A stretch of DNA of 64,000 bases, from NCBI GenBank assembly GCA_022496805.1, contig CM040088.1:12245001-12309000 (forward strand), read 5' to 3'. The first letter of the stretch is position 1. Each line of letters opens with the position of its first letter. Origin of the DNA: Pohlia nutans. Lineage: Eukaryota > Streptophyta > Bryopsida > Bryales > Mniaceae. Below, in pieces: positions 5,348-63,988 of the stretch. Position numbers and translations under genes: made by a program. The notes beneath the pieces are model-generated. The model had not been told where the DNA came from, did not search any database, and was given only the letters and a program-made list of their open reading frames with translations.

Positions 5348-8300
5348 GAAGAAATCAAGAAAGGCTTTTTCACCATTAAGATGAGCGAAGGAGATAGCAT
5401 CGCGGCCCACATCAACAAAGTTCGGGAACTTGACGAGCAACTTGCATCAATCGGGGAGAAGGTTTCGGACCTTTGGATGATTATGACGTTGTTGGGGAGT
5501 CTTCCGGAATCATACTAGACACTGGTGGTGACACTCGGGACAAAGGAGCCCAGTGCTTTGACAATGGAGATGGTAACTGCACAGTTACAACAAGAAGAAT
5601 CGCGACATCAAGGGAGCGGTTCATCCTCGGAGGCGGCACTTATGGTGACGAAAAAAGATAAGTCGTACAACCATAGCCATGGTGATAGTAAATCCTCTCA
5701 TGATCACAAAAAGAATGCCAAGTGTAGGTATTGTGGTAAGAAAGGATATTACGAAAAGGAGTGTCGGACCAAAGAGAGAGATTTTAAGTCTGGAAAACTG
5801 AAGAAAAGTTTTCAAAAGAACCAAGCTAATACTGTTAAAACCGAAGAAGATGACACGACTTTTGTAGCTGCTTTATCTGCGTCAGTGTCAAGTGACATGT
5901 GGTACCTTGACTCGGGTGCTTCTCAGCACATAACCGGATGTAGAGCATGGTTTTCTAAGTACGAAAACCTATCACTAAGCCGGACTGTCACTTTAGGAGA
6001 TGATATAGACTTGGTTATCAAAGGGAAGGGTTCGATCCCCTTTCAATTTCTACATGGTGATTGTATGGATGTACAAGACATCCTACATGTTGAAGGTTTA
6101 CGTAAAAACCTTATTTCTTTGAGCAAGTTGAGGGATCAAAGATACCGAATCACATTTGATGATGTAGCAGATATCTTCACGTTCACGAAGGACGACATTT
6201 CATTCTCTGCAGTTCGTTCGGGGACTTTGTACTTGTTACAAGGATCGGTGCAGAAATCATCGGAGGCACATTTATCGTTGGCAAAGCATGGCTTAGGGAA
6301 GGCCGACCTTTGGCATCAAGGATATGGACACTTGTGCATCACTAACTTGAAGAAACTCAAAGAAGACAACCTTGTGCGTGATTTTGACATGGGTAAGAAT
6401 TCAAAACTTGAATTTTGTGAAGGGTGTGTTTATGGCAAACAACATCGAGACAAATTTCCTAAAGATGGCGGTACGAGGGCTACGCGTATCCTCGAATTGG
6501 TACATAGCGATGTCAATGGACCAATGAAAACACCGACGCACGGAGGAGCTAAGTACTTTGCCCTTTTCATTGATGATTTCACCAGAAAAACCTTTGTGTA
6601 TTTTCTAACACAAAAGTCGCAAGTCTTTGAGAAATTCAAGGAATTCAAGGCATTTGTGGAGAACGAGACGGGGTGTCAAATCCAAACACTTCGGTCTGAC
6701 AATGGGGGTGAGTATACATCAAAGGCTTTCAATGATTTTTGCCGAGAACATGGCATTCAACGTCAGTTTAGCACGCCCTACACTCCGCAGCAGAATGGAG
6801 TTGCAGAACGCAAGAACCGGACACTTGTTGAAAGTGCACGGTGTATGCTTCAACATGCAGGGCTTTCTAATGTATTTTGGGCTGAGGCGATCAATACGGC
6901 AGTATATGTGCTTAATCGAGCACCTACATCAGTTGTGAAAGGCAAGACTCCACAAGAAGCTTGGTCTGGTAAGAAACCAACCGTTGAACACTTTCGAGTC
7001 TTTGGATGTGATGCATATGCTCACGTTTCAGATGAGAGACGTACCAAACTGGACTTGAAGAGTGTTAAATGTATTTTCTTGGGATATTATGAGGAATCCA
7101 AATGCTATAGGCTTTTTAATCCTGAGAAGAAGAGAATTGTCAAAAGTCGAGATGTCAAGTTTGTAGAGGTGAGAGAAACTAAGGAAAAGGAAGGGATAGT
7201 TGAGGTTAGTAATGAACCTCTAGAACGTATCATTAAAGTTGAAAAATTTGTTGAATCTGAGGTCTCTTCATCCGAGTCGGAGAATGAAGGTAAGGAAAAA
7301 GTGGGAGATTTAGTTGGTTCAACTGGTCAACGTCCACTTTCTGTCAAACAAATTCGTTCAGAGGCACGTAAAGTTTCACAAACTAAAGAGTTAGAGTCCA
7401 TCTCTCCACCTCCACCTTCCCTTAGGATTACTCGTTCACGAGCTCGAGAGATTGCACGTGCACAAGCGGAGTCAGCTTCAAGTGCTTCAATTCCTATCAC
7501 GACAGTCATAGATTCAATATGTATGGCTCATGCTTTTCATACAAGCATTGATGAGCCATTAACCATATCTGAAGTTATGGGAAGGGATGATTCATCGAAA
7601 TGGAAGGAGGCAATGGAATTAGAATTCCAAAGTCTCATCGACAACAAGACTTGGGAGCTTGTGACATTACCAAAGCATCGCAAATCCATTGGTTGCAAAT
7701 GGATTTACAAGATCAAATACAACGCGGATGGATCGGTGGAGCGCTACAAGGCGAGACTCGTAGCGTTGGGATACCTCCAAAAAGAAGGTATAGACTATAC
7801 CGAGACCTTTGCCTCAATTGCAAAGATGACTTCAATTCGCACTCTTTAAGCACTTGCTGCTATAGACGATGCCGAAATTCACCAAATGGATGTCAAGACG
7901 GCGTTTCTAAATGGAGACCTTTGAAGAAGAAATTTACATGGATCAGCCAAAAGGTTTTTCATCCAAAGGCAAAGAGGACATGGTATGTAAACTTTCCAAA
8001 ACCATTTATGGACTCAAGCAATCACCAAGGGCTTGGTACAAGAAAATTACCAATACTTTGAATTGATTGGTTTGAAGAAGAGTCATGCAGATCCTAACAT
8101 TTATGTGTTGAGGATTGCAACACTTTATCTTATCATTGCACTATATGTCGATGATTTGATCATGGTTTGTAATGACTTGAGTTTTCTTTTGAAAACCAAA
8201 GTTGATCTTTCTAAAGTGTTTGACATGAAGGATCTTGGAGAGATCTTCTACATTTTGGTCCTGCAGATCACTCGGGATCGGACACATCGCATGATTCACA

Positions 8301-13237: not shown

Positions 13238-13746
13238 GTACGATGGATCATGGACTTCGCTACGGTGGGAGTCCAATTTCACAAGTGGTTGGATATTGTG
13301 ATGTGGACTATGCAGGAGACATTGACACCCGCAAATCTACTACCAGATACACATTCTTATTGTACGGTGGTGTTATCAGTTGGAACAGCAAGAAACAACC
13401 AACAATTGCTTTATCAACCACCGAAGCCGAATACATGGCAGCTACACATGCTGCTAAAGAGGCAATTTGGCTTCAACGATTTTTCAGAGACACTAGATTT
13501 CTGCAAGATGTTCCGATGACCATTTACAGCGACAATCAAAGTTGCATCTCTCTTTCAAAGAATCCTATATTCCACGCTCGAACGAAACATGTTGAAATTC
13601 ATCATCATTTTGTTCGTGAGAAGATTGAAGAGGGTAAGATTGACTTAGTTTTTTGTGGGACTCAGGATATGGTTGCAGATGTTTTGACCAAAGGACTTAC
13701 ACGTGAGAAACATAGTCGGTTCAAGGAAATGATGGGCATCATTTAA
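13238..13746 (+). pseudogene. Copia 1 pol, part 3 (RNase H)
   Basis: The frame is open from the insertion junction to the stop at 13744-13746. Motifs are the standard Copia RNase H set: VVGYCDVDYAGD, RKSTTRYTF, SWNSKKQPTIALSTTEAEYM, DNQSCISLSKN, HARTKHVEIHHHFVREK, and the C-terminal DVLTKGL. This segment alone looks undamaged, but it is cut off from the rest of pol by the two insertions. Confidence 0.95.
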
Positions 13747-15919: not shown

Positions 15920-16435
15920 GAGCATTCCCACCCATGCCCTCATCAGGTGGCCTTCGAAACTGATTTGAGAGGGCACTGTAGTAGTTGAAGTGGCCTTCGA
16001 AATTCTGGAGGCCCACCGTGGAGTCTCCCTGGAATTCACAACTTGGAAAATGAAGAGGCCAGGGCGAATGGGAAGCACCACATGCATGCAAGTGGGCCAG
16101 GGGTGATTTCATTATGAACTTGGAAAATCAAGAGGCCAAGGCGAATAATTAGACAGCACAACTTTTAGACCATAATTAGACAGCACAACTTTTAGACCAT
16201 AATTAGACAGCACAGCTTTTTAGGCAATTAATGGAGATGATTATTTCCCTCAAATAGCCCGGGTTTCATGCTCCAGAGGCAAATTCAAGACTCCACAACC
16301 TGGCGTGGCAAAGCTCATTTCTATAGAGGCCTTGCAAGAGAGGCCCTTGCAAACCATGGGGTGAGAGGAAAAAATGTGTGCGGGCCCTCTACATTGGCAA
16401 AAGGCCACCTGTTGAGGGCAACGGTGGCCATGCTC
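15920..16435. mobile_element. Tourist-like MITE candidate (TTA flanks)
   Basis: The ends GAGCATTCCCACC and ggtggccatgctc are inverted with two mismatches, and TTA lies on both sides (15917-15919, 16436-16438). A 3-bp TTA duplication fits PIF/Harbinger-type elements. An internal 'ttagacagcacaacttttagaccataa' block is repeated almost in tandem three times (16148-16220). Confidence 0.6.
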
Positions 16436-16721
16436 TTATACCAGTGATGTTCTTCTATATTTGACATGGCTTTGTCCCATTGCCCACACATTCCGATGTT
16501 CTCACAGGCTTCACAGTTTAAAACTGTGTGAGCTAGTTCATTTCCTTTTTTGAGGGATTTCAAAGATATTAATCTCATAATGGTTGAATTGGCTACATTA
16601 ATTACAAGAGGCTGCCCTACTGCATAGAAGGACAGACGTATTAGTGACTACTTGGAGTCAAATATTTTGTAGATACTCTTGGACTGCTCTTCCAAGCACC
16701 CTCTTGACGTACAAGGGTTTA

Positions 16722-16838
16722 GAGCAAGGCTTCCTGATTCGGGAGGGTTTCTTGGGCAAATTCAGAGGCCGAATCCGGAAGCACTGCCGATTCTGCTTCC
16801 AAATCCGTCCTGTTGCCGATTTTTCCGTTCCCATGCTC
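16722..16838. mobile_element. Short MITE, GAGCAAGG ends, copy 1
   Basis: The ends GAGCAAGGCTTCCTG and catgctc, with flanks TTTA and TTAA, correspond to the better preserved copy at 44625-44762. The shared core is 'aggcactgccgattctgcttccaaatcc' or close to it. Confidence 0.5.
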
Positions 16839-17136
16839 TTAACGCTAGGGAACAAGCATCAAAGTGCCAATTTTGTTGTAGTGCACGGCCACAAGTCTCA
16901 CCCTCCAGGCTCGACCATGATCACTTGCTACTACATGATTGACACTTTGCTGCTTGTTCTTTAGTACAATCTGTCCCTTAGGACATAGCCCCCGTTTATC
17001 TAAGAGCATTTCTACTAGCACTCTGAATAGCTATTTGGTTTTGGAAAATGGATGTGTGTGCATTACAATAGTAGAAACACTACCCACGTAAACTAAAGAA
17101 AGATACCCAAAAAGACCCACAACTATTGATTCTAGT
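16839..17136 (+). repeat. Left flank of Copia 2, duplicated at 44.76-45.06 kb
   Basis: The sequence from 'taacgctagggaa' through 'gagcat..ctactagcactctgaatagctat' to 'attgattctagt' is shared with 44763-45057. Both Copia elements follow at the same point, so the two loci appear to be copies of one locus made after that Copia insertion. Confidence 0.7.
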
Positions 17137-17315
17137 TGTTAGAATACTACAGTTAACCACTAGTAACTCAGTAACAATAATTTAGTTAGATCTACCCTTA
17201 CCATTTACAATTATATGTTAGGACTACCTACTGGATACTTAACCATGCTTCTTTTAGTGGCTCATTGCATTGTATACCCACTTCATTCCGTTTCATATAA
17301 AACCATATTCTTTCA
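17137..17315 (+). repeat. 5' LTR of Copia 2
   Basis: It is a 179-bp LTR, TGTTAGAATACTAC to ATTCTTTCA. The same LTR occurs at 45058-46405 (interrupted) and 59379-59557 (also 179 bp). It is followed at once by TGGTATCAAAGC, a variant of the initiator tRNA-Met primer site. Confidence 0.85.
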
Positions 17316-17356
17316 TGGTATCAAAGCAATGTTTCAACTCTCTGACCTTATTCAAC

Positions 17357-17799
17357 TGGTAGTTACTCTTTATAATCGTCTGCTCGGTAATCACTACCGG
17401 TAAGAAGAGAGAAACTAATCGTAAGTACAGAAACTAAAAGATCTAAAAACACTAGACAAGCAAAAAAGATTACCGGAATTCAGTCGGTAACTCCTCCCAC
17501 TAGTATAGTCAGGGATGGAATCATCAAGTACAAGTATCTGGAAGGAACTTACTCGGTAGATACGATATCCAAAAGGAAAGGAAGGAAAACAAAACAGTCA
17601 TATATCTTGGAAAATGGACCGTGCCAATGAGTTTGGCTTCATTGCTTATATACATCAGTACAACCAGATCTGACCGTTAGGTCAAATCGGTAAAAAAGTG
17701 TTTTTCTAGATCTACTTTCTGTGGTAACTTGGAATTTTACCGGGGTAGTAAAAAATCCAGATCGGTAGGCTACCGGTAATTACTAAGTTACCGTTAACA
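17357..17799 (-). repeat. 3' LTR of the Gag-protease element
   Basis: It reads TGTTAACGG...ACTACCA on the minus strand. It differs from the 5' LTR at two bases (in 'gtca(a/g)atcgg' and 'ccagat(c/a)gg'). Confidence 0.95.
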
Positions 17800-17812
17800 C
17801 TATCCCCCCTCT
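17800..17812 (-). promoter_or_regulatory. Polypurine tract
   Basis: On the minus strand AGAGGGGGGATAG runs directly into the 3' LTR. This is the plus-strand priming site and fixes the element's orientation. Confidence 0.9.
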
Positions 17813-17875
17813 AAACCAAATTCACTCCTGGAACTTGTCAAAATTTGATGGTTGTCTTCCTGGTTGTGCATTGGT

Positions 17876-19858
17876 TCAGAGTTGAATGCGGCTTACCACG
17901 CGGGTCACGATTTTATCAACTGCGGTGTCGATGATGTCATCGGTGTCGGAGGTATGGTCGGATATCGGTGTGGTGTTGGGTTGCCGCGGTATGTCCGGTA
18001 AATCTTCGGAATCCTCTAGCCGTATTGGTTCGCTGGGAGTAGTCGGTGAGCTGAGAATGTTGCTCGGTAATGGCTGGTCAGACGGTGGGTGGAGCCCTGC
18101 ATCCGGTAAGCTGGGGGCTTGAATGGGTCCGGCTTCCGTGGTTTGAATGTTGGCGTCGGATGTTGGGACAGGAATTTGAGTCGCTTCCCAAGTCGGGAAT
18201 GCTCTGCGGTATTGTTGAAGCAGTCGGTAGGCTTGGTCCAATGCGAATGCGTATTCGCTAGCCTCCTCTTGGGCAGCCTTGGACTCTGTAGTGATGGCGG
18301 CTATTTCCGCTGATAGTTGGGTGTTCCGGGTGGACTGTTCGTCGAGTTGCTGCCGAAGGGTCGCTAACAAGTTGTTGTTGATGGTGTTGAGTCTTACTGT
18401 CCGGTCGCGCTCCTTCGTTAGTACCGATATTGTAGTGCGCTGTGCTTAGAGTTGTTCGGTCGCGGCTTGGGCCTCGGTGCGGTAGCGATCCCGTTCACTC
18501 CGAAGGTGAGTAACTTCGGTTCGGCATTGATGAAGGTCTGCTGTAGCCGTTGTGAACTGTTCCACTAACTCGGTAACCCTCCTTTCGGTAGTAGCAAGCG
18601 TATTTTGGAGAGCCTCCTCTCTCCGTTGGGTCTCGCGTGTGGACTGGGCCTGTACCGATACGTTGTCCAGTATCTGTAAGAGTTGGGTTGTAGAAGATCT
18701 GAAGACCGCAATGTTCTGCTGGAGGGTCCGAGGTAGCCGATAATATATCGCCGGTACGGAGGTGTCGGGTACCCGGTTAGTCGGAGGGGACAAAAGCAGA
18801 GTTTGGTCGAACGTATTCGGTGGTGACGGTAAGCCGATGGTTGGTGTAGTGTGGGTGGCCGGTACCGGTGCTGGTGAAGCTGGAGTAGATGTTGTGGTTG
18901 TTGGATGCGGGATGGCCGGTGGTGATGTGGTCGCGGTAGGGACCGGTTGAGTTGGTGTTGGCTGAGGTGCTGATATGACCGGTATTGGGTCGGTTTGCCG
19001 TGTACGTCGTCGGATGAGTGGTGAGAGTCGTGTTGAGGACGAGCTGTCTTCTTGCGGTGTTGATTGTTGCTGATGTGGTCGTCCCCTACCAAATTCCTGC
19101 AATGCCATATCGGCCGCCATGTATGTTGAGGTACCGGGCTTCCGCTTTGGTATCGCTGGAGAAGGGTCTGGCTGTGTCCGTGAACGTGTCCGATTACCGG
19201 GGCCGGTGTAAGGTGCGTCCGGTGTCGGGTCGGTCATCGGTAGCAATTGCCGACGTGGTTCGGTGCTCGGAGTAGGGTTCGGTGCGGTCATGTCGGGTAG
19301 CGAATTGCGTCGCGTTTGTGCTGGAAGGGTCGGGGAGGGCACGGTAGGTTGCTGCCGTCGTCCTTTGGTTTGGCGGAGGAGCATGTCCCATACCTCTGCC
19401 GAGTAGCATTGGTTCGATTTCCCGGACTGGAGGGTTTGAATCTCGGTTCGGAGCTGCTGTAGCAACATGTTGCTCCACTTCCACGATCCGGTACCGTTTT
19501 TGGCCAGTTCTTCCAGCGTTAGGAATAGGAGGATGCAGTTGTGGGAGGTGTACATCTGCTTCCTCTTGAAAAAAATGCCTTGCAAGATCCCGTACTTTCG
19601 ATGTCTGAGTTCTCCCAATCCCTTGCTGACGCTCCATCCGTTGTGAAATGTCGGGTAGATGTTGATCGCGTCTTCGGTACCGGTGTAGTAGTTGTATTCC
19701 GCCGGATCTGGGTTCGTGTTGACCAAATCGGTGGATCCGACGGGCAGCTTCAGTGTCTGGGTGATGGTGTCGGCGGTAATGGTATGGATCTCGCCGTAGA
19801 CTTGGCCGATGATGATGTCCTCGGTATCGATGGAAGCGGTGTTGATGAAGCGCTCCAC
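17876..19858 (-). pseudogene. Extra ORF of the Gag-protease element (unknown function), one internal stop
   Basis: A 470-codon frame (start near 19858, possibly further upstream in the same frame through a WVRHVGLRGYFNLPWTT-type stretch) ends at a single TAA (18446-18448). The same frame continues 25 codons later as the open run 17876-18370, so one base change seems to split an ORF of about 660 codons. The N-terminal part (about 120 residues) looks globular. The middle is very rich in Pro, Thr and Ser. The C-terminal part, with heptad-like Gln/Glu/Leu/Arg runs, is probably coiled coil. It is not a recognizable polymerase, integrase or transposase. Extra ORFs between pol and the 3' LTR are known in plant LTR elements; whether this one belongs to any named family I cannot say. 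Confidence 0.7.
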
Positions 19859-20115
19859 GACGTCGGTTCGGATGGGCGTGGTCGTCCAGGGAAGGTTGAA
19901 GTAGCCGCGTAGGCCGACATGTCGAACCCAGTCGAGTTCAAATGAACTCTGCGTACTCCCGCCATTTGGCCATGTGTGTCATTGGGTGTGGCATTATCGT
20001 TCGCCAAGTACCGGTGATCGGTGTGTCCGTGGCTTGTACACGTGTGGGCATAGCGAGTTGTTTTATGTTTGGCCATCCTGCAAAAACGAACACGGCGCGA
20101 TTCTTTCTTTTTCAC

Positions 20116-20485
20116 TCGGAGTGCTATCAGGCTACGGGAAGTAAGATTTCTAAACTGCGCTATTCGCCTCGGTCAAAAGTAGTCCTACCGGGAAACTGTT
20201 GAAAACTAACAGCTACCGACCTCGGAGTCCGGAAATTTGGAATAGAAGAAGAGCTGGGGGAGGGAGGGCGGAGGCGGAGAACCAACCGAGAAGGGGAAAG
20301 CACCGAGGTGGGAAGAGAAGTCATAGCGGCAGGTGGATAAATAGGGAGGGGGAGGCGAAACGAAATGAATGAGTGAGTAATTAGGGACGGCGGTGTTAAG
20401 AGAGGTGCAGCATAAAAGAATACCCATTGAGTGCCTGACACGAAGTCATAAAGTGGCGGCGCAGGAATGTTGCTAGGTGCCGTAC
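20116..20485. other. Spacer between extra ORF and protease in the LTR element
   Basis: About 370 bp without a convincing ORF. On the minus strand there are pyrimidine-rich stretches (cctccccctccc) and a possible start region for the downstream ORF. It may hold a subgenomic promoter or splice acceptor for that ORF; nothing decisive is visible. Confidence 0.4.
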
Positions 20486-21835
20486 CTAGGACTTCTTGGT
20501 GCGGGGAAGGTCTGGTTTTTCCGGTGCTGTTGGTCGGTGCAGTGTTGGAGTTAGTGTTGTTGGTCGGTCTTCTGAAGTGGGCGGGTGTAGATTCCTCCGG
20601 TGAGCTGAACTGCTGGTGGTGAAGTCAATGATGTCGTTGGTGATATGCTCCGGAATGCCCCTGGAGTTAGGGTGGGACTCCCCAAAGGCGGTTTTGAACG
20701 CGTGGACTAATGCTTTCGTCCTGTCAAACTGGTATGTCGGTACCGTAGTACCGATGCAAATACTAGTGGGTACCTGAGGGTTTCCGAGGTGAACATCGCG
20801 TAATTGCTTATTGTCAGTCTGGGATTGTTTTTCTACGGCTTCGTTTGTCTGGTTTGATACTTCGGTTACCGGCATATCACATTCGGTAGGTAGACTTACC
20901 GATGGTGTAATCAAGACAAGATGTTCGGAAGTTCGTACCGGGTGGAAGTTTGTACCGGGCGGTTCGAAAGTTTGTACCAATGTTTTACTGAGGTGGAAGT
21001 ATTCTTCGGCCTCTCCTAGGATTGTTTCTCCACCCTTGGTAATGTCTTCCACATGGTTGTAGCAAACCAGTGCGGCCGGGGAGGTTGCTTCAAAACCTAA
21101 TTGACGGTTGATGCGGATGGTGTGCATTTTGCCATTTCCCATGATTTGGATATGATCGTTGGCCCAGTTGTGAATGACACGAGCATCTCGGAGCCAAGGT
21201 CTACTGAGAAGTAATGTATATGCAAAATTCACGTCTTTACATGAAATGACTGTAAGGATAATGGTGTAGGATATACCGTGTATAGAGATTGTTACGTCGT
21301 GGAGAAGTCCTATCGGTTGTACTAGGGAGCTATCTGCCATTTGTAATTTGAAGTGGGCTGGTGTTTGTTCCGGTAGTCTGAGTCGACAACGTTCTGATTC
21401 CGTGATGACATTGACTCTGGATCCGCCATCTAGAAGTACTTCGTGAATCTCGCGGTTCCTGATTTTTACCGAAATAATGGGTATGTGCCGATTGATAGCG
21501 ACGACCGAGTGAACATCAATGGGTGTGTCCTCTAGGACCGGTAGAGGTAAATTACCTTTCTGGTAGAGGTGGCGTTGGATGTGTTCGGAAATGATAGGAG
21601 CAATGGACATCAGGTTTTTTAGGGATACCTGGATAGTTTGCGATTCGATTTGTTGCAGAATGTTGTCGCACAGGTCGATGGTGGTATGGTTGTTGATCAT
21701 TGTCTCCGGTTGTCTCCGGTGCGAGTGTTGATCGTTGTCTCCGGTTGGGTGCTCCACTGCTCCGTGGGAGAGAGTTCTTGTAACTCCCGTACTGTTTAGA
21801 TCATCTCGTCCCGCAGTTTTTCTTCGGTTTGCCAA
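20486..21835 (-). CDS. Retroviral-type aspartic protease region of the LTR element
   Basis: The 449-residue frame has the pepsin-like active site VLLDGGSRVNVI (Asp136-Gly-Gly), followed by the strand HFKLQMADSSLVQPIG, a flap-like region, and LLSRPWLRDARVIHNW, the usual layout of plant Ty3/Gypsy proteases. D-G-G is common in this plant group. The frame overlaps the end of gag by 40 nt in the -1 frame, so expression as a Gag-protease fusion by -1 frameshifting is likely. The long C-terminal tail after about residue 240 is hydrophilic and Thr/Pro-rich, where other Gypsy elements would continue into reverse transcriptase; here it ends. Confidence 0.8.
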   Translation of the reverse strand: MANRRKTAGRDDLNSTGVTRTLSHGAVEHPTGDNDQHSHRRQPETMINNHTTIDLCDNILQQIESQTIQVSLKNLMSIAPIISEHIQRHLYQKGNLPLPVLEDTPIDVHSVVAINRHIPIISVKIRNREIHEVLLDGGSRVNVITESERCRLRLPEQTPAHFKLQMADSSLVQPIGLLHDVTISIHGISYTIILTVISCKDVNFAYTLLLSRPWLRDARVIHNWANDHIQIMGNGKMHTIRINRQLGFEATSPAALVCYNHVEDITKGGETILGEAEEYFHLSKTLVQTFEPPGTNFHPVRTSEHLVLITPSVSLPTECDMPVTEVSNQTNEAVEKQSQTDNKQLRDVHLGNPQVPTSICIGTTVPTYQFDRTKALVHAFKTAFGESHPNSRGIPEHITNDIIDFTTSSSAHRRNLHPPTSEDRPTTLTPTLHRPTAPEKPDLPRTKKS

Positions 21836-23163
21836 TCAAACGTCTCCCAGGTGTGTGGTGCATCGGTATTGGTGGTCGTGGTATTTGATCGGTGGGTTTG
21901 GTTGGTTGTCCGAGGGCGTATATAGGATGTATCGATAGTATGCACAACGGTAATGTCTACCGAGGATACCGCTGGTTGTGGCAGTTTCTTCTGAATCGCT
22001 TTCTTCACGTCGTCATCAAGTAATAATGGGCATTTATGCCCCGGATGCTCCCTTGATCCACAAATGTTGCATGGATACCTCTGGATCGGTGTGTTGGGGC
22101 GGAAATGGCCTCGGTTGTCGTTGCTTACCGGGTTAGGTTTGGGTTGTGGTTGGATCGGAAGGACTGTTGCCGCGTCGGTTCTCTTTCCGTACTTGCTAGC
22201 TGGGTTTCGAAAGCAGGTTTCCCAGTCGTGTCCCGTTCGTCCACAACCGGAACACTTCATATTTCGCTGGGGGTTCTCTCCGGTACTCAGTGCAGGGTGG
22301 TCGTATCGGGCTGGCCTCGGAAGTCCCTCTTCCGCTGTTTGAGCCGCAGTTACCGCTTCCAAAAACGTCTGGAAATTTAAACTGACAGTGGCAACTTGAA
22401 GGTATTCTAGTAATCCTGCACGGAAATTACTCAACATAAACATATCGTCAGGAGGAACTGTTAGGTTTTCCGCTAGTTGTTGTAAACGTTCGGCATAGTC
22501 ATCGACGAATTCATTCGGTAGCTGAATGAGGGTTCGGAATTGAATGTATGTCTGATCATCGGTTTTGATGGTTCGGTAACGTCGTTTGAAGACTTCATGA
22601 AGTGTGGCAGTCGGGTTGAGTTTCCTGTGATACGCAAACCAATTGGATTCCTTGTCGGTTAGAGAATTAGCAAACAATTCAAGTTGATCGAACGTTTGAT
22701 TTTTGCCATTCAGTAATAATGCTGCTCCGAATTTCCGACAGTGGGTTTCTGGGCACTTACCTGTCTTATATTCGGGATACGGTACGACTTTCCTGGCTGT
22801 GTGAGCGGTGCGATGGCCCGGTTGCTGGGGTATATCCTTTGGTTCTTGGTGAGGGCGGTAAACTTGGGTCGGTACTCCGGGCGCCACGATCCGTCGGGAC
22901 TGTGGATAGTAATAGGGACACGCCATGGTATGATGGTCGGGATTGCCACAAAATAGACAAAAATACACAGTAGGGCGGTAATGTACCTGATGTGGTTGTT
23001 GGTGTTGCGGATAGGTAACTGTTGCTGGTATGCGGTTGTGTGGTAGGATTGGAGTGGATATCTGCTCGTGTACGTCTTGGTGGAAGTGTGTTTGGGCTCT
23101 TGTGCATGGGACCGGATCGGTGTCTGGTAGTGAGCTTGCCGCGCGAGTGTGTTCTTGAACCAT
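21796..23163 (-). CDS. Gag polyprotein of the LTR element, three CCHC zinc knuckles
   Basis: The protein has 455 residues. A capsid-type Gag domain (about 145-275) has the pattern LELFANSLTDKESNWF, then VFKRRYRT and LPNEFVDDYAERLQQLAENL. Three CX2CX4HX4C knuckles are present: Cys69-Cys82, before the capsid domain, and Cys304-Cys317 and Cys365-Cys378, after it. The two C-terminal knuckles are expected for nucleocapsid RNA binding; the N-terminal one is unusual. The frame is intact, in keeping with the element's youth. The protein would form the virus-like particle that packages element RNA. Confidence 0.9.
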   Translation of the reverse strand: MVQEHTRAASSLPDTDPVPCTRAQTHFHQDVHEQISTPILPHNRIPATVTYPQHQQPHQVHYRPTVYFCLFCGNPDHHTMACPYYYPQSRRIVAPGVPTQVYRPHQEPKDIPQQPGHRTAHTARKVVPYPEYKTGKCPETHCRKFGAALLLNGKNQTFDQLELFANSLTDKESNWFAYHRKLNPTATLHEVFKRRYRTIKTDDQTYIQFRTLIQLPNEFVDDYAERLQQLAENLTVPPDDMFMLSNFRAGLLEYLQVATVSLNFQTFLEAVTAAQTAEEGLPRPARYDHPALSTGENPQRNMKCSGCGRTGHDWETCFRNPASKYGKRTDAATVLPIQPQPKPNPVSNDNRGHFRPNTPIQRYPCNICGSREHPGHKCPLLLDDDVKKAIQKKLPQPAVSSVDITVVHTIDTSYIRPRTTNQTHRSNTTTTNTDAPHTWETFDWQTEEKLRDEMI

Positions 23164-23300
23164 TAAACAGGATAACTAGTCTAGTGACGTGGGTTATAAT
23201 ACTGGTTCGGTACTCGTCTTTTCGGATTGTCTCGCGAGTTCTGCAAAACGATATGTACTGGGATCTGTCGATGCAACTAGGAAAGCAAAAGATTCTAGAA

Positions 23301-23323
23301 TTCGAAACACTAGATGGTCGCCA
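23301..23323 (-). promoter_or_regulatory. Primer binding site, not initiator Met type
   Basis: Two bases after the 5' LTR the minus strand reads TGGCGACCATCTAGTG.... Its complement (plus strand, ttcgaaacactagatggtcg then CCA) has exactly the geometry of a tRNA 3' end: T-loop TTCGAAA, a 5-nt T-stem strand, a 7-nt acceptor strand, discriminator G, CCA. A tRNA whose 5' end is GACCATC is required; tRNA-Arg is my guess. Confidence 0.75.
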
Positions 23324-23325
23324 AA

Positions 23326-23768
23326 TGGTAGTTACTCTTTATAATCGTCTGCTCGGTAATCACTACCGGTAAGAAGAGAGAAACTAATCGTAAGTACAGA
23401 AACTAAAAGATCTAAAAACACTAGACAAGCAAAAAAGATTACCGGAATTCAGTCGGTAACTCCTCCCACTAGTATAGTCAGGGATGGAATCATCAAGTAC
23501 AAGTATCTGGAAGGAACTTACTCGGTAGATACGATATCCAAAAGGAAAGGAAGGAAAACAAAACAGTCATATATCTTGGAAAATGGACCGTGCCAATGAG
23601 TTTGGCTTCATTGCTTATATACATCAGTACAACCAGATCTGACCGTTAGGTCAGATCGGTAAAAAAGTGTTTTTCTAGATCTACTTTCTGTGGTAACTTG
23701 GAATTTTACCGGGGTAGTAAAAAATCCAGATAGGTAGGCTACCGGTAATTACTAAGTTACCGTTAACA
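23326..23768 (-). repeat. 5' LTR of the Gag-protease element
   Basis: It is the 443-bp partner of 17357-17799, differing at two bases. The right flank carries the second TCAAC. It should contain the promoter, but no TATA box can be assigned with confidence. Confidence 0.95.
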
Positions 23769-23773
23769 TCAAC

Positions 23774-24579
23774 CGATCTCAATCCTTCTTGCTTATTTCA
23801 CTTTTACACTATTGGTCTCCTACTAAGTCTTGCACGCTTTCACTTGGTCTCTCCGATGTGCATCTTATGTTCCCCTTGCTATCTTGATCTTGAATCTTGT
23901 ATTTGAACTTGCTACGGCTAGCACAACTGGAGCAGTTGCTACTACCACAAATGCAGCAGCTAATACGACTCACGAAATCAAAGTTACAATGCGAGAAACC
24001 ACCTACTTGAGAGATGGAACTAATTATGCCATTTGGGCATTTCGTGTCAAGATTATATTAGAACGAGATGGTCTAATACTATAATATCCCTCCCACCGCT
24101 GAACTCGATGCATGCTCCTAAAGCAGCTGGTGGATTCAAAACTTATTACATTTTATCTCTGACAGTGGTTGATTCAGCCATTCATCGTTGTTTTTCTAAT
24201 GACCCCTATCAATGTTGGTAGACCTTGCATAATCATTATGAGTCCAAAAATGCCAATAGAAAAGTTGTTTTGCTTGAAAAAGTTGTATTCATGAAAAAGA
24301 AAAATGACATCTCTATGGATATCTATTTGAGTGAGATCAAAGAGACTATTGGATAGTTAGAAGACGTTCAGTGGGTTGTTCCAGAAGATCTAGTTGTCAT
24401 GATGACCCTAAGATCTTTACCAAAAGAATATTATTTCTTTATGAAAGCTCAGTCATTAGGTAGTAACATTCCTACGTTTAATGAATTTAATAAGAGACTA
24501 CTCGACAAGGAACTTTAAGTCAAGAACTTTACCGAAGCCAATGACTTTGAGGCTATGGCGATCGATACTTTCCACCCTA
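23774..24579 (+). pseudogene. Copia 2 gag remnant
   Basis: After the LTR-element insertion the Copia gag resumes. The frame HEIKVTMRETTYLRDGTNY then AIWAFRVKIILERDG is a Copia Gag N-terminus, and later pieces (NHYESKNANRK, MDIYLSEIKETIG, LPKEYYFFMKAQSLG) continue it with several stops and frameshifts. The closest relative in the window is the gag of Copia 3 (46.6-48.2 kb). Confidence 0.75.
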
Positions 24580-36935: not shown

Positions 36936-37295
36936 ATGGCAAGTCGTAGTGGATGCTCGTATCAGCCCAACGATTTGCAATTGTCCGATAATTCTTGTAC
37001 TGTGGGTGATTCAATGGGTGAGTCAAGTAAGGTGTCGGATTTTGCCACAACAACATTTGCAAGTGATTATGCAATTTCGTCTACATCGTATTTCTCAACA
37101 GTGGAAGAGCAGATCGATCGGTCCAAGGCTCATTGGAGTATGTTGGCGGATGACTCGGGCTACACCGAGGAAGAGAAATTGGACTTTGAAATGAGCAATG
37201 TCCAAGAGTTTGAGGCTTTGCAGAGGCATACCATTTGGGGAAGTTTCTTTGGGAATTTCACTGGTGATGGTATATCTACGGGCTTTGGTTATGTA

Positions 37296-37320
37296 CAGTG
37301 ACTGCCAAAACTGAGTACAG
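37296..37320 (+). repeat. Left outer TIR of the Tc1-like element
   Basis: These 25 bp are identical to the reverse complement of 38901-38925. The in-frame TGA at 37299-37301 truncates the kinase. Confidence 0.95.
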
Positions 37321-37549
37321 AAAAACATAGTTTACCTTTAGTCATTCATATATTATAATGTGATGCATTTAATGTCCAATCAGTTAACGGCTCAAGTATA
37401 CATGCATGTAAATGATGTGGCTACCAAATTACAAGTCCAGCAATGCAAGATAATTTGAGAAAGATCCAGATCAAAGTAAATTAGCTCCAAAACTCACTTA
37501 TGCTCACACTTGGATTAAGCAATGAATGCTACAAATCTGACATGTACAA

Positions 37550-38698
37550 GTGGTCTTTTCTGGGTCTGATTTTTTGGGTGAGCATGTTTTTGGCCTTCAC
37601 ATTTATAATGTCTCCCCATTCAGTGCACATCATGTATGCAAATTGAGCAAAATGGTTTCATTGAGATCTCTCTCTGTTGCTAGTAGAAAGCAAGTAGAAG
37701 AAGCTACTTTAGAGAAGTTGAGGAGGGGTGAGAGTACTAGAAATGTTGCTAGAGAGTTACAGGTATCCCAAAGTTGGGTTGCAAAATTTCGTAAGCAACA
37801 TTTGAGTGAATTGAGTGATGTCAATCAAAGTTTTGGTGGTAGGCCAAAAATGTACAGTGCAGTTGATCGTAGAGCTTGTGTCAGAGCAATCACTGTGGGT
37901 GGCTTAGAAACTGCACACAAAGTTGGAAATTACTTGAGGGAAGAGCTTCATGTTGGTATGAGCGATAGTACTGTGAGGAGAGTGTTACGAAAAGCAGGTT
38001 TGAAATGTAAAGTGAAGCAAAAGAAACCAAAACTTACACTTCTTCAAATTAAGCGACAATTAGAATTTGCTAGACGTCATTGCCATTGGACTGATGATGA
38101 TTGGGATCGTGTAGTATTCTCCGATGAAACAAAAATCAACCGATTTTGCTCTGATGGTCGCAGTTGGTGTTGGTTTCGTGATGAACAGAGTAGAAGTGCA
38201 GGAATGGTACAACAAACTATCAAGTTTGGAGGTGGCGGAGTGATGATGTGGGGTTGCATGACTTCAAGTGGCCCTGGTATGATGTGTAGGATTGAGGGAA
38301 GAATGGATCAGTACATGTATAGAGAAATTTTAGAGCGAGAGTTGATTCATACGCTCCATGCATACGATTTGGATCCTGCCAATTTGATTTTTCAACATGA
38401 TAATGACCCGAAACATACATCCAAGAGTGTGCGCCGTTGGCTGAATTTGCAAGAATTTGTTGTTTTGAAGTGGCCGGCGCAATCTCTAGACTTGAATCCA
38501 ATCGAACACTTGTGGGCAACTTTAAAACGCCGACTAAACCAATATGAGAGACCTCCCAAAGGAATGTTAGAATTGTGGGAGCGTGTCGAGGATTGTTGGG
38601 CTTCAATTACTTCCAATGAGTGTCAGAACTTGTATAGGAGCATGCCTAAGCGCATTGCAGCTGTTATAGCTGCTAAGGGTAGGTGGACAAATTTTTAG
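37550..38698 (+). CDS. Tc1-like transposase (DD34E)
   Basis: The frame has 382 codons from 37550; Met35 at 37652 (MVSLRSLSVASRK) gives 348 residues, the usual Tc1 length, and is the more likely start. An N-terminal paired-type helix-turn-helix (RGESTRNVARELQVSQSWVA) is followed by a GRPK linker motif and a second HTH with STVRRVLRKAGL. The catalytic triad is Asp192 (VVFSDETKINRF), Asp284 (FQHDNDPKHTS) and Glu319 (LDLNPIEHLW), with 34 residues between the last two, hence DD34E. GGGGVMMWGCM and the C-terminal tail MPKRIAAVIAAKGRWTNF fit the family. The frame has no stop or shift. Known plant mariner-like transposases are mostly DD39D, so this type is unexpected here; the tail is of a kind I associate with fungal Tc1 elements (from memory, unchecked). 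Confidence 0.95.
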   Translation: MVFSGSDFLGEHVFGLHIYNVSPFSAHHVCKLSKMVSLRSLSVASRKQVEEATLEKLRRGESTRNVARELQVSQSWVAKFRKQHLSELSDVNQSFGGRPKMYSAVDRRACVRAITVGGLETAHKVGNYLREELHVGMSDSTVRRVLRKAGLKCKVKQKKPKLTLLQIKRQLEFARRHCHWTDDDWDRVVFSDETKINRFCSDGRSWCWFRDEQSRSAGMVQQTIKFGGGGVMMWGCMTSSGPGMMCRIEGRMDQYMYREILERELIHTLHAYDLDPANLIFQHDNDPKHTSKSVRRWLNLQEFVVLKWPAQSLDLNPIEHLWATLKRRLNQYERPPKGMLELWERVEDCWASITSNECQNLYRSMPKRIAAVIAAKGRWTNF

Positions 38699-38900
38699 CT
38701 TCATTCCAGCTTGTGTGAGCAAAACTGAGTTTTAGATTGAATTTTACTTTATTTTTGTTTGTACGTGCATACTTGTGTGTAATAGGCCTCAATTCCATGG
38801 AAGTATGACTAATTGCAATGGTAATCCTATGCAATTTATGGTTTCATTTTTGATGCATCCAATTTTCTTACATTGTTTGTTGAATTTCAATATGATGTGC

Positions 38901-38925
38901 CTGTACTCAGTTTTGGCAGTCACTG
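38901..38925 (-). repeat. Right outer TIR of the Tc1-like element
   Basis: It is the perfect inverse of the left TIR, directly followed by TA and the kinase codons for YGELVV. Confidence 0.95.
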
Positions 38926-39890
38926 TATATGGTGAGTTGGTGGTGGGTAAGAAGTTTGCAGAGGGTGGCCAAGCTGAACTCTTTGAAGCCCAAGTCAAAT
39001 GGAAGGATCCAAAAAATACTAAGATTGACCAAAGGGAGAAAGCTAAGCATGTACTAAAGGTCTTCAAGGAGGGGACTCTCTTAAAACAAGTCAAGTCTCA
39101 ATTGCCCGAAGGATTGCTGCTATATCATGTCGAAGGAATGAAACTTGTGAAGTCTTCACCAAACATGAATCCAGAATATGTTTCTCGAGTACATCGTGGG
39201 ATATTGTTGAAGGGGGGAAGATTTGCATTTCTTATGCAAAGGCGACATTTTGATTTGCGTATTCTGATTGAGCGGAATATGAAATTCAAAAAAGGTAAAG
39301 ATTGTGGACCATTTTCAATGGACGATGTTGAATTATTAATGTATGAAGTTGCATTGGGGGTGAATAGTTTGCACAATCGTGACATTGTTCATAGAGACTT
39401 GAAGGCATCAAATGTCCTTGTACATGAGAACAAAAGTTCTTGGCCAAGATGGAGTTGCTATTTGGCAGACTATGAATGCTCTATTGGAGTTGTAGGCACT
39501 CTTTTCTTTAGAGCGCCTGAGATATTACAGGTGTGCAAAGAACGGAAAACGAACGAGAGGTTGGAGGTGTTTTCAAAAGCAGCAGATGTTTATAGCTATG
39601 GAATGACTTGCTATGAAATCTTGACAGGGAAGCTTCCATTTGAAGATCTTCCGTTGAGGAACAACTCCTCTTTATTGATTGATCTTGTGATCAATCAACA
39701 CCTGCGTCCGGAGGTACCTGAATATGTTCAGGATTGGGCACGTGAACTATTGGATAGATGTTGGCAATTCAATTCTACAACTAGACCTAGAATTGGAGAG
39801 ATATTGAATGTACTTTCATCCAATTCAATAGAAGTTAGAAATTTCGAAGTTCCGCTGAGGGAGATATATGGTGAGAATTTTAGAAGATAG

Positions 39891-51500: not shown

Positions 51501-52179
51501 TGTTTGACCATGCTCTCTCCAAATATCTTTGGGACTCAGAAGCTCTTTGCATGGCACCCCATCTTCTAAATAGATGCACCACAAAAAGTCAAGCCACAAC
51601 ACATCCTTTATGAGTTGTATCATGGAGTCTAACCAAATCTTTCTAATCTTCTCATATTTGGCTTACAATCTTTGTACACATTCCACGAAATCGGCAAAAG
51701 AAGCTAGACTGTCGTTCCCAGCATTGCATCTCTTTTGGCCACGAGGCCCACAACGACAATAATATAGGATTCCGGTGTTATCTTCCTAGCATGAAGAAGG
51801 TTTTGATACACATGATATTAAGTTTGCAGAGGATTGCAAGACGGATCTTCTAGCCAACGCCCTCAAAGTTCCTGATCTAATTGAGATTTGAGATCTCAGT
51901 TTCTAGGACTCGGTACTCATCATCCGTAATGGACCTCTCAGCCAATACCTAAGCATTGCTGGACTTCTCATCTTTTGGACCGGCGACTCCCATTATGGTT
52001 GATCCCATGGCATCAACTAGCTCGACCTCACCACTCACAACTCCAATTTTCTTGACTGCATCACCTTCAACATCACAACTTGAAGCACTAGCCTGATCGT
52101 CTGCATCTCCTGTAGCCTTGCCTGTAGCTTCGATCCGATCATCACTTGCAGCACCGATACGCTCTGCTGTAAAACTTAT

Positions 52180-53440
52180 AGCACTTGCCGCACATCGCAA
52201 GCGCCGTGTTGTACTACCATCACCGCCACAAACCCCCGCCACATTGCTCCACCTATTTCCCGAACGGTTGGATGAGTATGTGGCGACAATTGACTGTTCT
52301 CGTGATCACATCAATTTTGAACTTGACAGTGAATCCATGTCTCTTTCTAATGCTCTTGCTGATGTACGTTGGCTCGCTGCAATGCGAGAGGAACTTAGCT
52401 ATATTTTGGAGAACAAGACCTGGACTTTAATAGAATTATTATTTGGAAAACAAACAATTTTTGCTCGATGGGTGTTCAAAGTCAAGCCTTCCAGTAGAAA
52501 TGCCAAACTTTGCTACAAGGACAGGCTCGTAGCTAGAAGCTATGAACAGCAAGCTGGTCTTGATTATGATCGAATTTTTGCCCTCGTTGGCAAATGGGAG
52601 ACTATTTGGATTGCCACTACCTTTACAGCCCAGTGAGATTGGCTAATATATCATCTTGATGTGAAGACGTCAACATTTCTCAATGGACAACTCCAAGAGG
52701 AAATATACATGGTACCACGACCAGACTTCACAATTAGACATGACGCTGAAAAGCTTGTCTGTAAGCTTCATCAAATCATCGTGTTTTCTACAGATTGAAG
52801 CAAGCACCTCGGGCGTGGCGTGGTATGCCCGGATTGATGTTTTTCTCTAAACTCAAGATTAGCCTTTAGAAGTTTAATGCCAACTCAAACTTATATTATC
52901 TTTGCGACGATTCATTACTGGTCCTAACGATTCTTTATGTTGATGATATTCTCCTCACCACAAACTCTCATGACTTATTGGACTAGCTCAAGGACAAGCT
53001 CATGGCAGAGTATTCCATGAAAGATATTGGTTTTGTCCTTTAGTATCTTAGCATGGATTTTCGGCAGGTACTTGACGAGCTTCTTCGGCATCAATCAGCC
53101 TACATACGCTCACAACATTCTTATGGACTTCTAAATGGCAGATTGGATACGTGCTCCCTGAAAGCGTCAGCTGGCTTCTAAAACCGATACTCTTGAGGTC
53201 GATCCTATACAACACAGACGGGTTTTTGGTAAGCTTCAGTACCTCATCAAAACTCGCCCTGAATTGTCTTTTTCATTTGGCCTTGTAAGCCGCTTCGTCA
53301 GCAAGTCCCAGTGCACTCACCTTAAGGCCGTCCATCACATTCTTCAGTATATCAATGGTAGCCATGGCATTGGGCTTCTTTACAAGCGTTGTGAACCGTC
53401 GAGACGGTCCACCCTCGCGGTAAACTTTTATCGTGAGGTT
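52180..53440 (+). pseudogene. Copia 3 reverse transcriptase remnant
   Basis: Motifs in order: WLAAMREELSYILENKTWTL, FKVKPSSRNAKLCYKDRLVA, HLDVKTSTFLNGQLQEEIYM, a damaged KQAPRAWY, LTILYVDDILLTT with the catalytic YVDD (about 52930), and HLKAVHHILQYINGSHG near the end. There are many stops and shifts. The sequence breaks off near 53430 and the RNase H part resumes after about 2.6 kb. Confidence 0.85.
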
Positions 53441-62271: not shown

Positions 62272-63988
62272 TCAAGCAGGAAAGCTTTGGAGAAAATTAT
62301 AGTTGGATCTGATGTCACGGATGACCTTGTGGAGGACTTGGTGGTGCACTTTGGGATTTAAATCTAAATAATATTGAAATAACTCTTCCACTTCAGCATG
62401 TTGATTCTGCATTTAAACAATTTATTATCAAAATATTGTATAAATAACTTTATACAAGTTTATTACTCAAAGTAAAATTTAAAAATAATAGTACACTAAA
62501 GTAGAGTCAATACTACAGTATAATTACAAATAGTAAAATCACATAACTTGTAGGCCTTCTTCTTCAATCATAGTGACCATTGACAAACGAAAATCGGAAT
62601 AGGGGTCAGAAGAATGTTTAATGAGCACATTGGGATCATCTGCAGTTGTAGTAGCTGCTACTGTTTTTTCTTGATTTGTTGTCAATTGGCTACTTTGAGT
62701 TGGCAACAATTCATCCTCCTCACTTGAACATTTTTTACAATTGATGTTGTCCATCATCTCAACATCATGATGTAATACAGTTGTATCAACCAATTGTGCC
62801 TTGGAAGGAGTAGTACTCAACCAACGTGATTCTATAGTAGAATTTGTAGAATTTTTTTGTTTCACAAATCTTGAATTTTCACCTTCTAGTATTACAGAAT
62901 GTGTAGGATTCATATCTATGGACCGCGGGGCATTTGTATCGAAAAAACTTGTCATTTGATTTTCAACATAGGTTGTATTATTTTCCAAGTCACATGTATG
63001 TCGAGAATGATTCATCCAAGACTCATCCCCTAATCCTAGAGGACCCCTCATTTCATTTCTATTATCATGATTGAAATCAGTTGCTGCAATATTATAGCCA
63101 CCTCTTATTGTTGAAGGCCTTTGTTCATTCGTGTCAATTAGACTACCATCATGAGGTGCAGTGGCAAGCCTTTTACGTGGAGACACATCCCAAATAGGAG
63201 AAGATTTGGGATTATTAAACATTAATTTTGAGAACATATGTGGTGTTGTGCTTTTAGATGGAGACAAACGTTTGTCAGATTTGAATCCATTCAAAACTTT
63301 GTTGTAATCTGATATAGGTCGAATGAAGCTAGGCTTCTCTCGCTCAAGACCTGTTAATGAATCAACAACAAAAATGAAATATAGATCTTCAAATTCTAGT
63401 ATATTGGTACTTTGAATTAAGTTATTATAGGTATGTTCTATAATAAAACAACAGCCAATATGCATATTAAAAAAAAATCAAATGTCTAAATTTTTTTTAA
63501 TAATAAATACAATAAATACAATTTATAGAAGAAAAATATAGTATATGATTAACAGTGGTGTAGGACTTGAAGCTACCTTTGAAATTACCATGTATAGGTA
63601 CATGGTAAGGATTTTGGAAGTTGGAGGGTGAAAGATCACTGGTATGGGATTTGGAGTTGAGAGTAGAAATGGAAAAATCAATGTCAGAGGAGGTAGTCAC
63701 TTCATCACTTGTGGACCATCCACAATAAACAAAGGGGTTTAATCTCTCTAGTACATCAGCATCAGAAGTGGTATCCCTGGACATGCAGCAATTTATAATA
63801 TTATAATTGGATGAACTGGTAACAATTGGCTCATGGGTGGCATTACTACTTCCACTATGATAATTTCGTAGAGCTTGTTGTTTTGCAGGTCTAATACAAG
63901 GTTGAGGATCCTTGACAACGTCAGATATTTCGGAGTTTGAATTAGTCGTCACTTCTACTTGTCTATTTCTTGCCTCTGTCTCTATCAT
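62272..63988 (-). CDS. OVATE family protein (OFP), 3' three exons, 5' end at or beyond the window edge
   Basis: Exons on the minus strand: 63988-63577, 63350-62548 and 62406-62272, with GT/AG introns of 226 and 141 bp. Joined they give 449 codons plus stop from the Met at 63988, which lies in an open frame reaching the window edge, so the real start may be further out. The C-terminal OVATE domain is clear: SSDPYSDFRLSMVTMIEEEG in exon 2, then EEVELFQYYLDLNP-type sequence (NQHAEVEELFQYYLDLNP) and HHQVLHKVIRDI in exon 3, with an intron between GLQ and NQH. The rest is hydrophilic, Ser/Thr/Asn-rich and apparently disordered, as in most OFPs. OFPs are plant-specific nuclear or cytoplasmic proteins that bind TALE homeodomain and TRM proteins and act as transcriptional repressors and shape regulators. 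Angiosperm OFPs often lack introns, so the intron inside the domain is notable. Confidence 0.85.

Follow-up and report, generated by a model that had tools for sequence, protein, structure and literature searches.

The 64,000-nucleotide stretch analyzed here, in the following referred to as the window, represents positions 12,245,001 to 12,309,000 of contig CM040088.1 (assembly GCA_022496805.1) of the moss Pohlia nutans and harbors a protein kinase gene that is interrupted by a Tc1-like DNA transposon. Counted from the first letter of the window, the 5' part of the interrupted open reading frame (ORF) is located at positions 36936-37295 and the 3' part, which encodes a protein kinase domain (PF00069), at 38928-39890, both on the plus strand. 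The element proper comprises 1,630 bp (37296-38925) and resides between two TA dinucleotides at 37294-37295 and 38926-38927, the left and right copies of the target-site duplication. It is bounded by terminal inverted repeats of 25 bp at 37296-37320 (plus strand) and 38901-38925 (minus strand), which match exactly at end positions 1-25 and show mismatches from position 26 on; a blastn search against the window returned the match between the two ends with an E value of 1.1e-06. Terminal inverted repeats of the form CAGT...ACTG together with a duplicated TA are those of Tc1-like (DD34E) elements, and both the perfect 25-bp ends and the TA duplication had already been described in an earlier note on this stretch. 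No additional terminal repeat was found in the 64-kb window when up to six mismatches were allowed, and no second protein-level transposase match at E values up to 1; all other DNA matches to the element in the window, its own repeats aside, were short (26 bases at most by blastn). Thus, the element is present as a single copy within the window.

The element encodes a transposase of 348 amino acids in a single uninterrupted ORF on the plus strand (37652-38698). The ORF starts at ATG 37652, upstream of which no in-frame ATG occurs as far as the last stop codon. The catalytic residues are D158, D250 and E285, with 34 residues separating the second aspartate from the glutamate. They correspond to the residues previously numbered Asp192, Asp284 and Glu319, the count having started at a GTG 34 codons further upstream (ORF 37550-38698), and the uninterrupted DD34E transposase proposed in the earlier note is thereby confirmed. 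A homology search with the transposase matched 3,751 proteins, and all comparisons given here rest on the 120 of these that were listed. All 121 aligned proteins, comprising the query and the 120 listed relatives, retain both the triad and the 34-residue spacing. The Pfam domains HTH_Tnp_Tc3_2 and DDE_3 score above the respective cut-offs, and Pfam matches to the first N-terminal helix-turn-helix unit remain below them. In the structural model, this first unit is represented by helices at residues 9-24, 29-36 and 40-49, the second by helices at 70-81, 88-99 and 105-114, and an RNase H-like DDE fold is present as well. The predicted arrangement of two N-terminal helix-turn-helix units and an RNase H-like DDE domain is that of a Tc1-like transposase, and both sequence and fold are closer to Sleeping Beauty than to Mos1. 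The element is a structurally complete DD34E Tc1-type transposon and had been classified correctly. Membership in PlantMar, a plant family with the DD39D signature for which PMC7325037, in its available portions, gives no bryophyte member, was rejected based on the triad spacing.

The closest listed relative of the transposase, P0002, stands for 73 member sequences and is 98% identical to the query, with six differences in 348 residues. A full-length ORF is also what would be expected of a domesticated transposase gene that is retained for a function of the host. However, domesticated copies usually lack intact ends, and the perfect terminal repeats, the TA duplication and the existence of P0002 and the sequences it represents fit a mobile family, so that we regard domestication as highly improbable.

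Removal of the element, with one TA kept, joins positions 36936-37295 and 38928-39890 into an open frame of 440 amino acids without a stop codon. In the occupied allele, the kinase frame halts after 121 residues at a TGA (37299-37301) within the left terminal repeat, and the next downstream in-frame ATG is found at 39138. Pfam kinase matches occur only downstream of the insertion and are absent from the upstream part. Since the frame stops ahead of the part that matches the kinase domain, the occupied allele is, judged from its sequence, most likely null. That the element might be a spliced-out part of the gene was considered and rejected, as splicing at the nearest GT and AG, located by eye, would shift the frame. 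The restored frame also bears on the question of whether a foreign transposon might have been joined into a plant contig by misassembly or contamination. A chance join would hardly leave one TA on each side and, upon dropping the element and one TA, a continuous host frame; such an artefact is accordingly very unlikely, and the earlier placement of the element inside a plant-type kinase gene, as opposed to contaminating DNA, is upheld. The same observation indicates that the insertion into the coding exon is real and probably fairly young.

A homology search with the kinase yielded 434 matches, of which the 120 listed were used for comparison. The best identity among these is 63%, and all listed matches with a named organism are from Ceratodon purpureus (42-59% identity), which by itself makes a moss host most likely. 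The join between the two parts of the gene is spanned by 112 of the 120 listed homologs, 102 of which have no extra residues nearby, the maximum being nine. For many of the C. purpureus relatives, the locus numbers lie close together on chromosome 10, suggestive of a large cluster of kinase genes at this location.

With regard to the condition of this copy, the query deviates at six of the alignment columns that are common to at least 90% of the 120 other proteins (positions 129, 132, 136, 155, 279 and 348). P0002 shares four of these deviations and has the common residue at positions 136 and 279. At position 136 the query has glutamine where 118 of the 120 other proteins have arginine (R136Q), and at position 279, six residues N-terminal of the catalytic glutamate, it has leucine where 119 of 120 have proline (P279L). 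Given these substitutions at nearly invariant sites, the open reading frame is no proof of activity, and it appears doubtful that this copy is still active. The earlier description of the element as intact holds for its reading frame.

Taken together, we propose, with a probability of roughly 0.93, that the locus carries a structurally complete Tc1-like (DD34E) DNA transposon of the cut-and-paste type, which integrated into a TA within a coding exon of a gene belonging to an expanded moss kinase family. In analogy to Tc1, Sleeping Beauty and Mos1, the transposase would bind the ends of the element through its N-terminal helix-turn-helix domains, pair both ends and cut them using the D-D-E site, and the excised element would then be joined to a new TA, which in the present case would have interrupted the kinase exon. 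Several observations weigh against this proposal. Some kinase homologs lack up to 13 residues near the join, and none of the 112 spanning homologs is free of gaps over the 15 residues on each side, as the linker varies just before the site; the kinase relatives therefore support the gene, but not the exact letters of the empty site. In addition, the enzyme may be impaired by R136Q and P279L.

When the subterminal regions of both ends were aligned locally, a second pair of repeats emerged, the left one at 37473-37539 (plus strand; element positions 178-244) and the right one at 38688-38750 (minus strand; positions 176-238 from the right end), the latter overlapping the last codons of the ORF. 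These inner blocks are inverted copies at matched distances from both ends, and their alignment score of 42 was not reached by any of 2,000 dinucleotide shuffles, the best of which scored 36. In the region that separates the outer from the inner block, no clear similarity is seen, its score being reached by 58 of 1,000 single-base shuffles. In direct orientation, the outer repeat matches the subterminal regions weakly at best, the score being reached by 32 of 500 shuffles on the left and 131 of 500 on the right. An inverted match of the outer repeat in the right block is strong (none of 500 shuffles), the corresponding value on the left being 95 of 500. The ends of Sleeping Beauty, a reconstructed fish element (5cr4), are of the inverted repeat/direct repeat (IR/DR) type, in which each of the long, imperfect terminal repeats contains the binding site twice in the same direction, as an outer and an inner copy. 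In contrast, the inner blocks of the Pohlia element lack a convincing same-direction match to the outer repeat, so that the layout of its ends bears only a resemblance to the IR/DR type and to the 214-nt repeats of TIR_1, an element of Pleurotus ostreatus. Both the inner inverted repeats and the two substitutions R136Q and P279L are new details on this element.

In the available portions of the literature cited here, Tc1-like elements of plants have been described before. PMC4054914 reported two DD34E elements, PpTc1 and PpTc2, in Physcomitrella in 2014 and, in nine angiosperms, Tc1-like sequences that were for the most part fragments. The earlier note had assigned true Tc1-type elements to animals, fungi and protists, a view that does not hold in light of these data, and the surprise it expressed has mostly been answered in print since 2014. 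The element described here thus adds to a known group and is not the first of the Tc1 type in a moss. Broadly, it belongs with the Physcomitrella elements, with which it shares the DD34E transposase, the CAGT...ACTG ends, the TA duplication, the moss host and the occurrence of copies with intact ORFs. However, PpTc1 and PpTc2 are 1,584 and 1,709 bp in length with 33-bp repeats and a transposase of 338 amino acids, compared to 1,630 bp, 25 bp and 348 amino acids in Pohlia, a distinction drawn from printed descriptions only (PMC4054914). Similarly, TIR_1, which has been compared with Mariner2_PPa of P. patens, shares DDE_3 and Tc3-type domains, a length of 1.6 kb and the TA duplication, but has terminal repeats of 214 nt, whereas in Pohlia perfect repeats are confined to the outer 25 bp and the second block lies at about 176-244 from each end (PMC4905642). 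The element probably constitutes a family of its own. That it also represents a further Tc1-like lineage of mosses, separate from PpTc1 and PpTc2 and characterized by IR/DR-like ends, is a more tentative suggestion that we consider rather unlikely; if true, Tc1-like elements would have entered mosses more than once, from fungi or other organisms. No paper on this transposon family in another moss was found in the open-access literature searched, and the available text of a review on horizontal transfer in plants (PMC12448838) mentions Tc1/mariner once, in an insect.

Among the listed relatives of the transposase, P0003-P0006 are 62-64% and P0007 is 58% identical to the query. In a tree of 63 rows, the query and P0002 group together (support 100/100) and are then joined by P0003-P0007 (100/99), this group being nested among other relatives; the bootstrap of this tree had not converged, 13 of its inner branches are open, and the only row of known source is Sleeping Beauty, with no labeled mariner, PlantMar or fungal sequences. 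With P0002 set aside, about 0.7 changes per site separate the query from the nearest proteins listed. The earlier note had proposed a recent horizontal transfer, perhaps from a fungus. Published trees place the Physcomitrella Tc1-like elements among fungal ones: PMC4905642 (2016) reported a Physcomitrella element that resembles one of Pleurotus, the divergence of the pair being estimated at 517 million years, and suggested horizontal transfer to account for its position among basidiomycete elements, and PMC7466625 (2020) found PpTc1 and PpTc2 to be closer to elements of fungi than to those of other plants and suggested a transfer from fungi to Physcomitrella. The nested position of the Pohlia group would agree with such an event. 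However, the nearest listed proteins beyond P0002 are too distant to represent a recent donor, P0002 may itself belong to the same or a related moss, and the divergence given for the Physcomitrella-Pleurotus pair is itself not recent. The clean insertion justifies the word recent for the jump into the kinase gene, but the present data provide no date for a transfer from one species to another, and a recent arrival of this family in this moss lineage from a fungus, while possible, appears improbable to us. We rather lean towards the view that the family entered mosses earlier, be it from fungi or from elsewhere, and was then inherited vertically while undergoing bursts of copying, with the present insertion as no more than its latest jump. 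This would account for a clean insertion in combination with distant relatives and is in line with the recent bursts described for Tc1-like families in Physcomitrella (PMC4054914). The base composition is likewise near that of the host gene (G+C content 0.395 for the element and 0.411 for the kinase; at third codon positions 0.358 for the transposase ORF and 0.397 for the kinase), although this is weak evidence for an older entry.

A viral vector and a prokaryotic source were also considered and rejected. In viral contigs, no relative was found by protein search, none of nine pattern matches to the transposase alignment was confirmed, and 23 bases of the terminal repeat had no exact match. Of 594 pattern matches in prokaryotic contigs, at least 164 were found to encode a relative. 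The 80 of these that were kept for comparison show 22-42% identity in their best segment, with no close relative among them, which in our reading suggests distant, IS630-like proteins. Alone, the Pohlia element leaves the known picture unchanged. Few Tc1-like elements are known from plants, and the present one contributes a well-preserved example, perhaps from a second moss, as well as a clean insertion by which a gene of a large moss kinase family is disrupted; with labeled relatives it would help to decide between a single and multiple uptake by mosses.

Elsewhere in the window, a copia-type retroelement is located at 5525-7849, with a single ORF that comprises gag-pre-integrase, the integrase core and the start of a reverse transcriptase. 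An ORF of 167 amino acids at 13243-13746 has no Pfam match and resembles, by eye, the RNase H end of a copia element, and an ORF at 52118-52636 with a partial match to a copia-type reverse transcriptase (RVT_2) is probably a relic. At 62539-63465 on the minus strand, an ORF with six homologs found in total matches the Ovate domain weakly, at 24.2 bits against a cut-off of 25. The region 16001-24000 stands out by a G+C content of 0.47-0.49, being flanked by 4-kb bins of 0.33-0.36, and its ORFs are on the minus strand: two long ORFs without Pfam match (18446-19858 and 20486-21835) and a retrotransposon gag ORF (PF03732) at 21796-23163.
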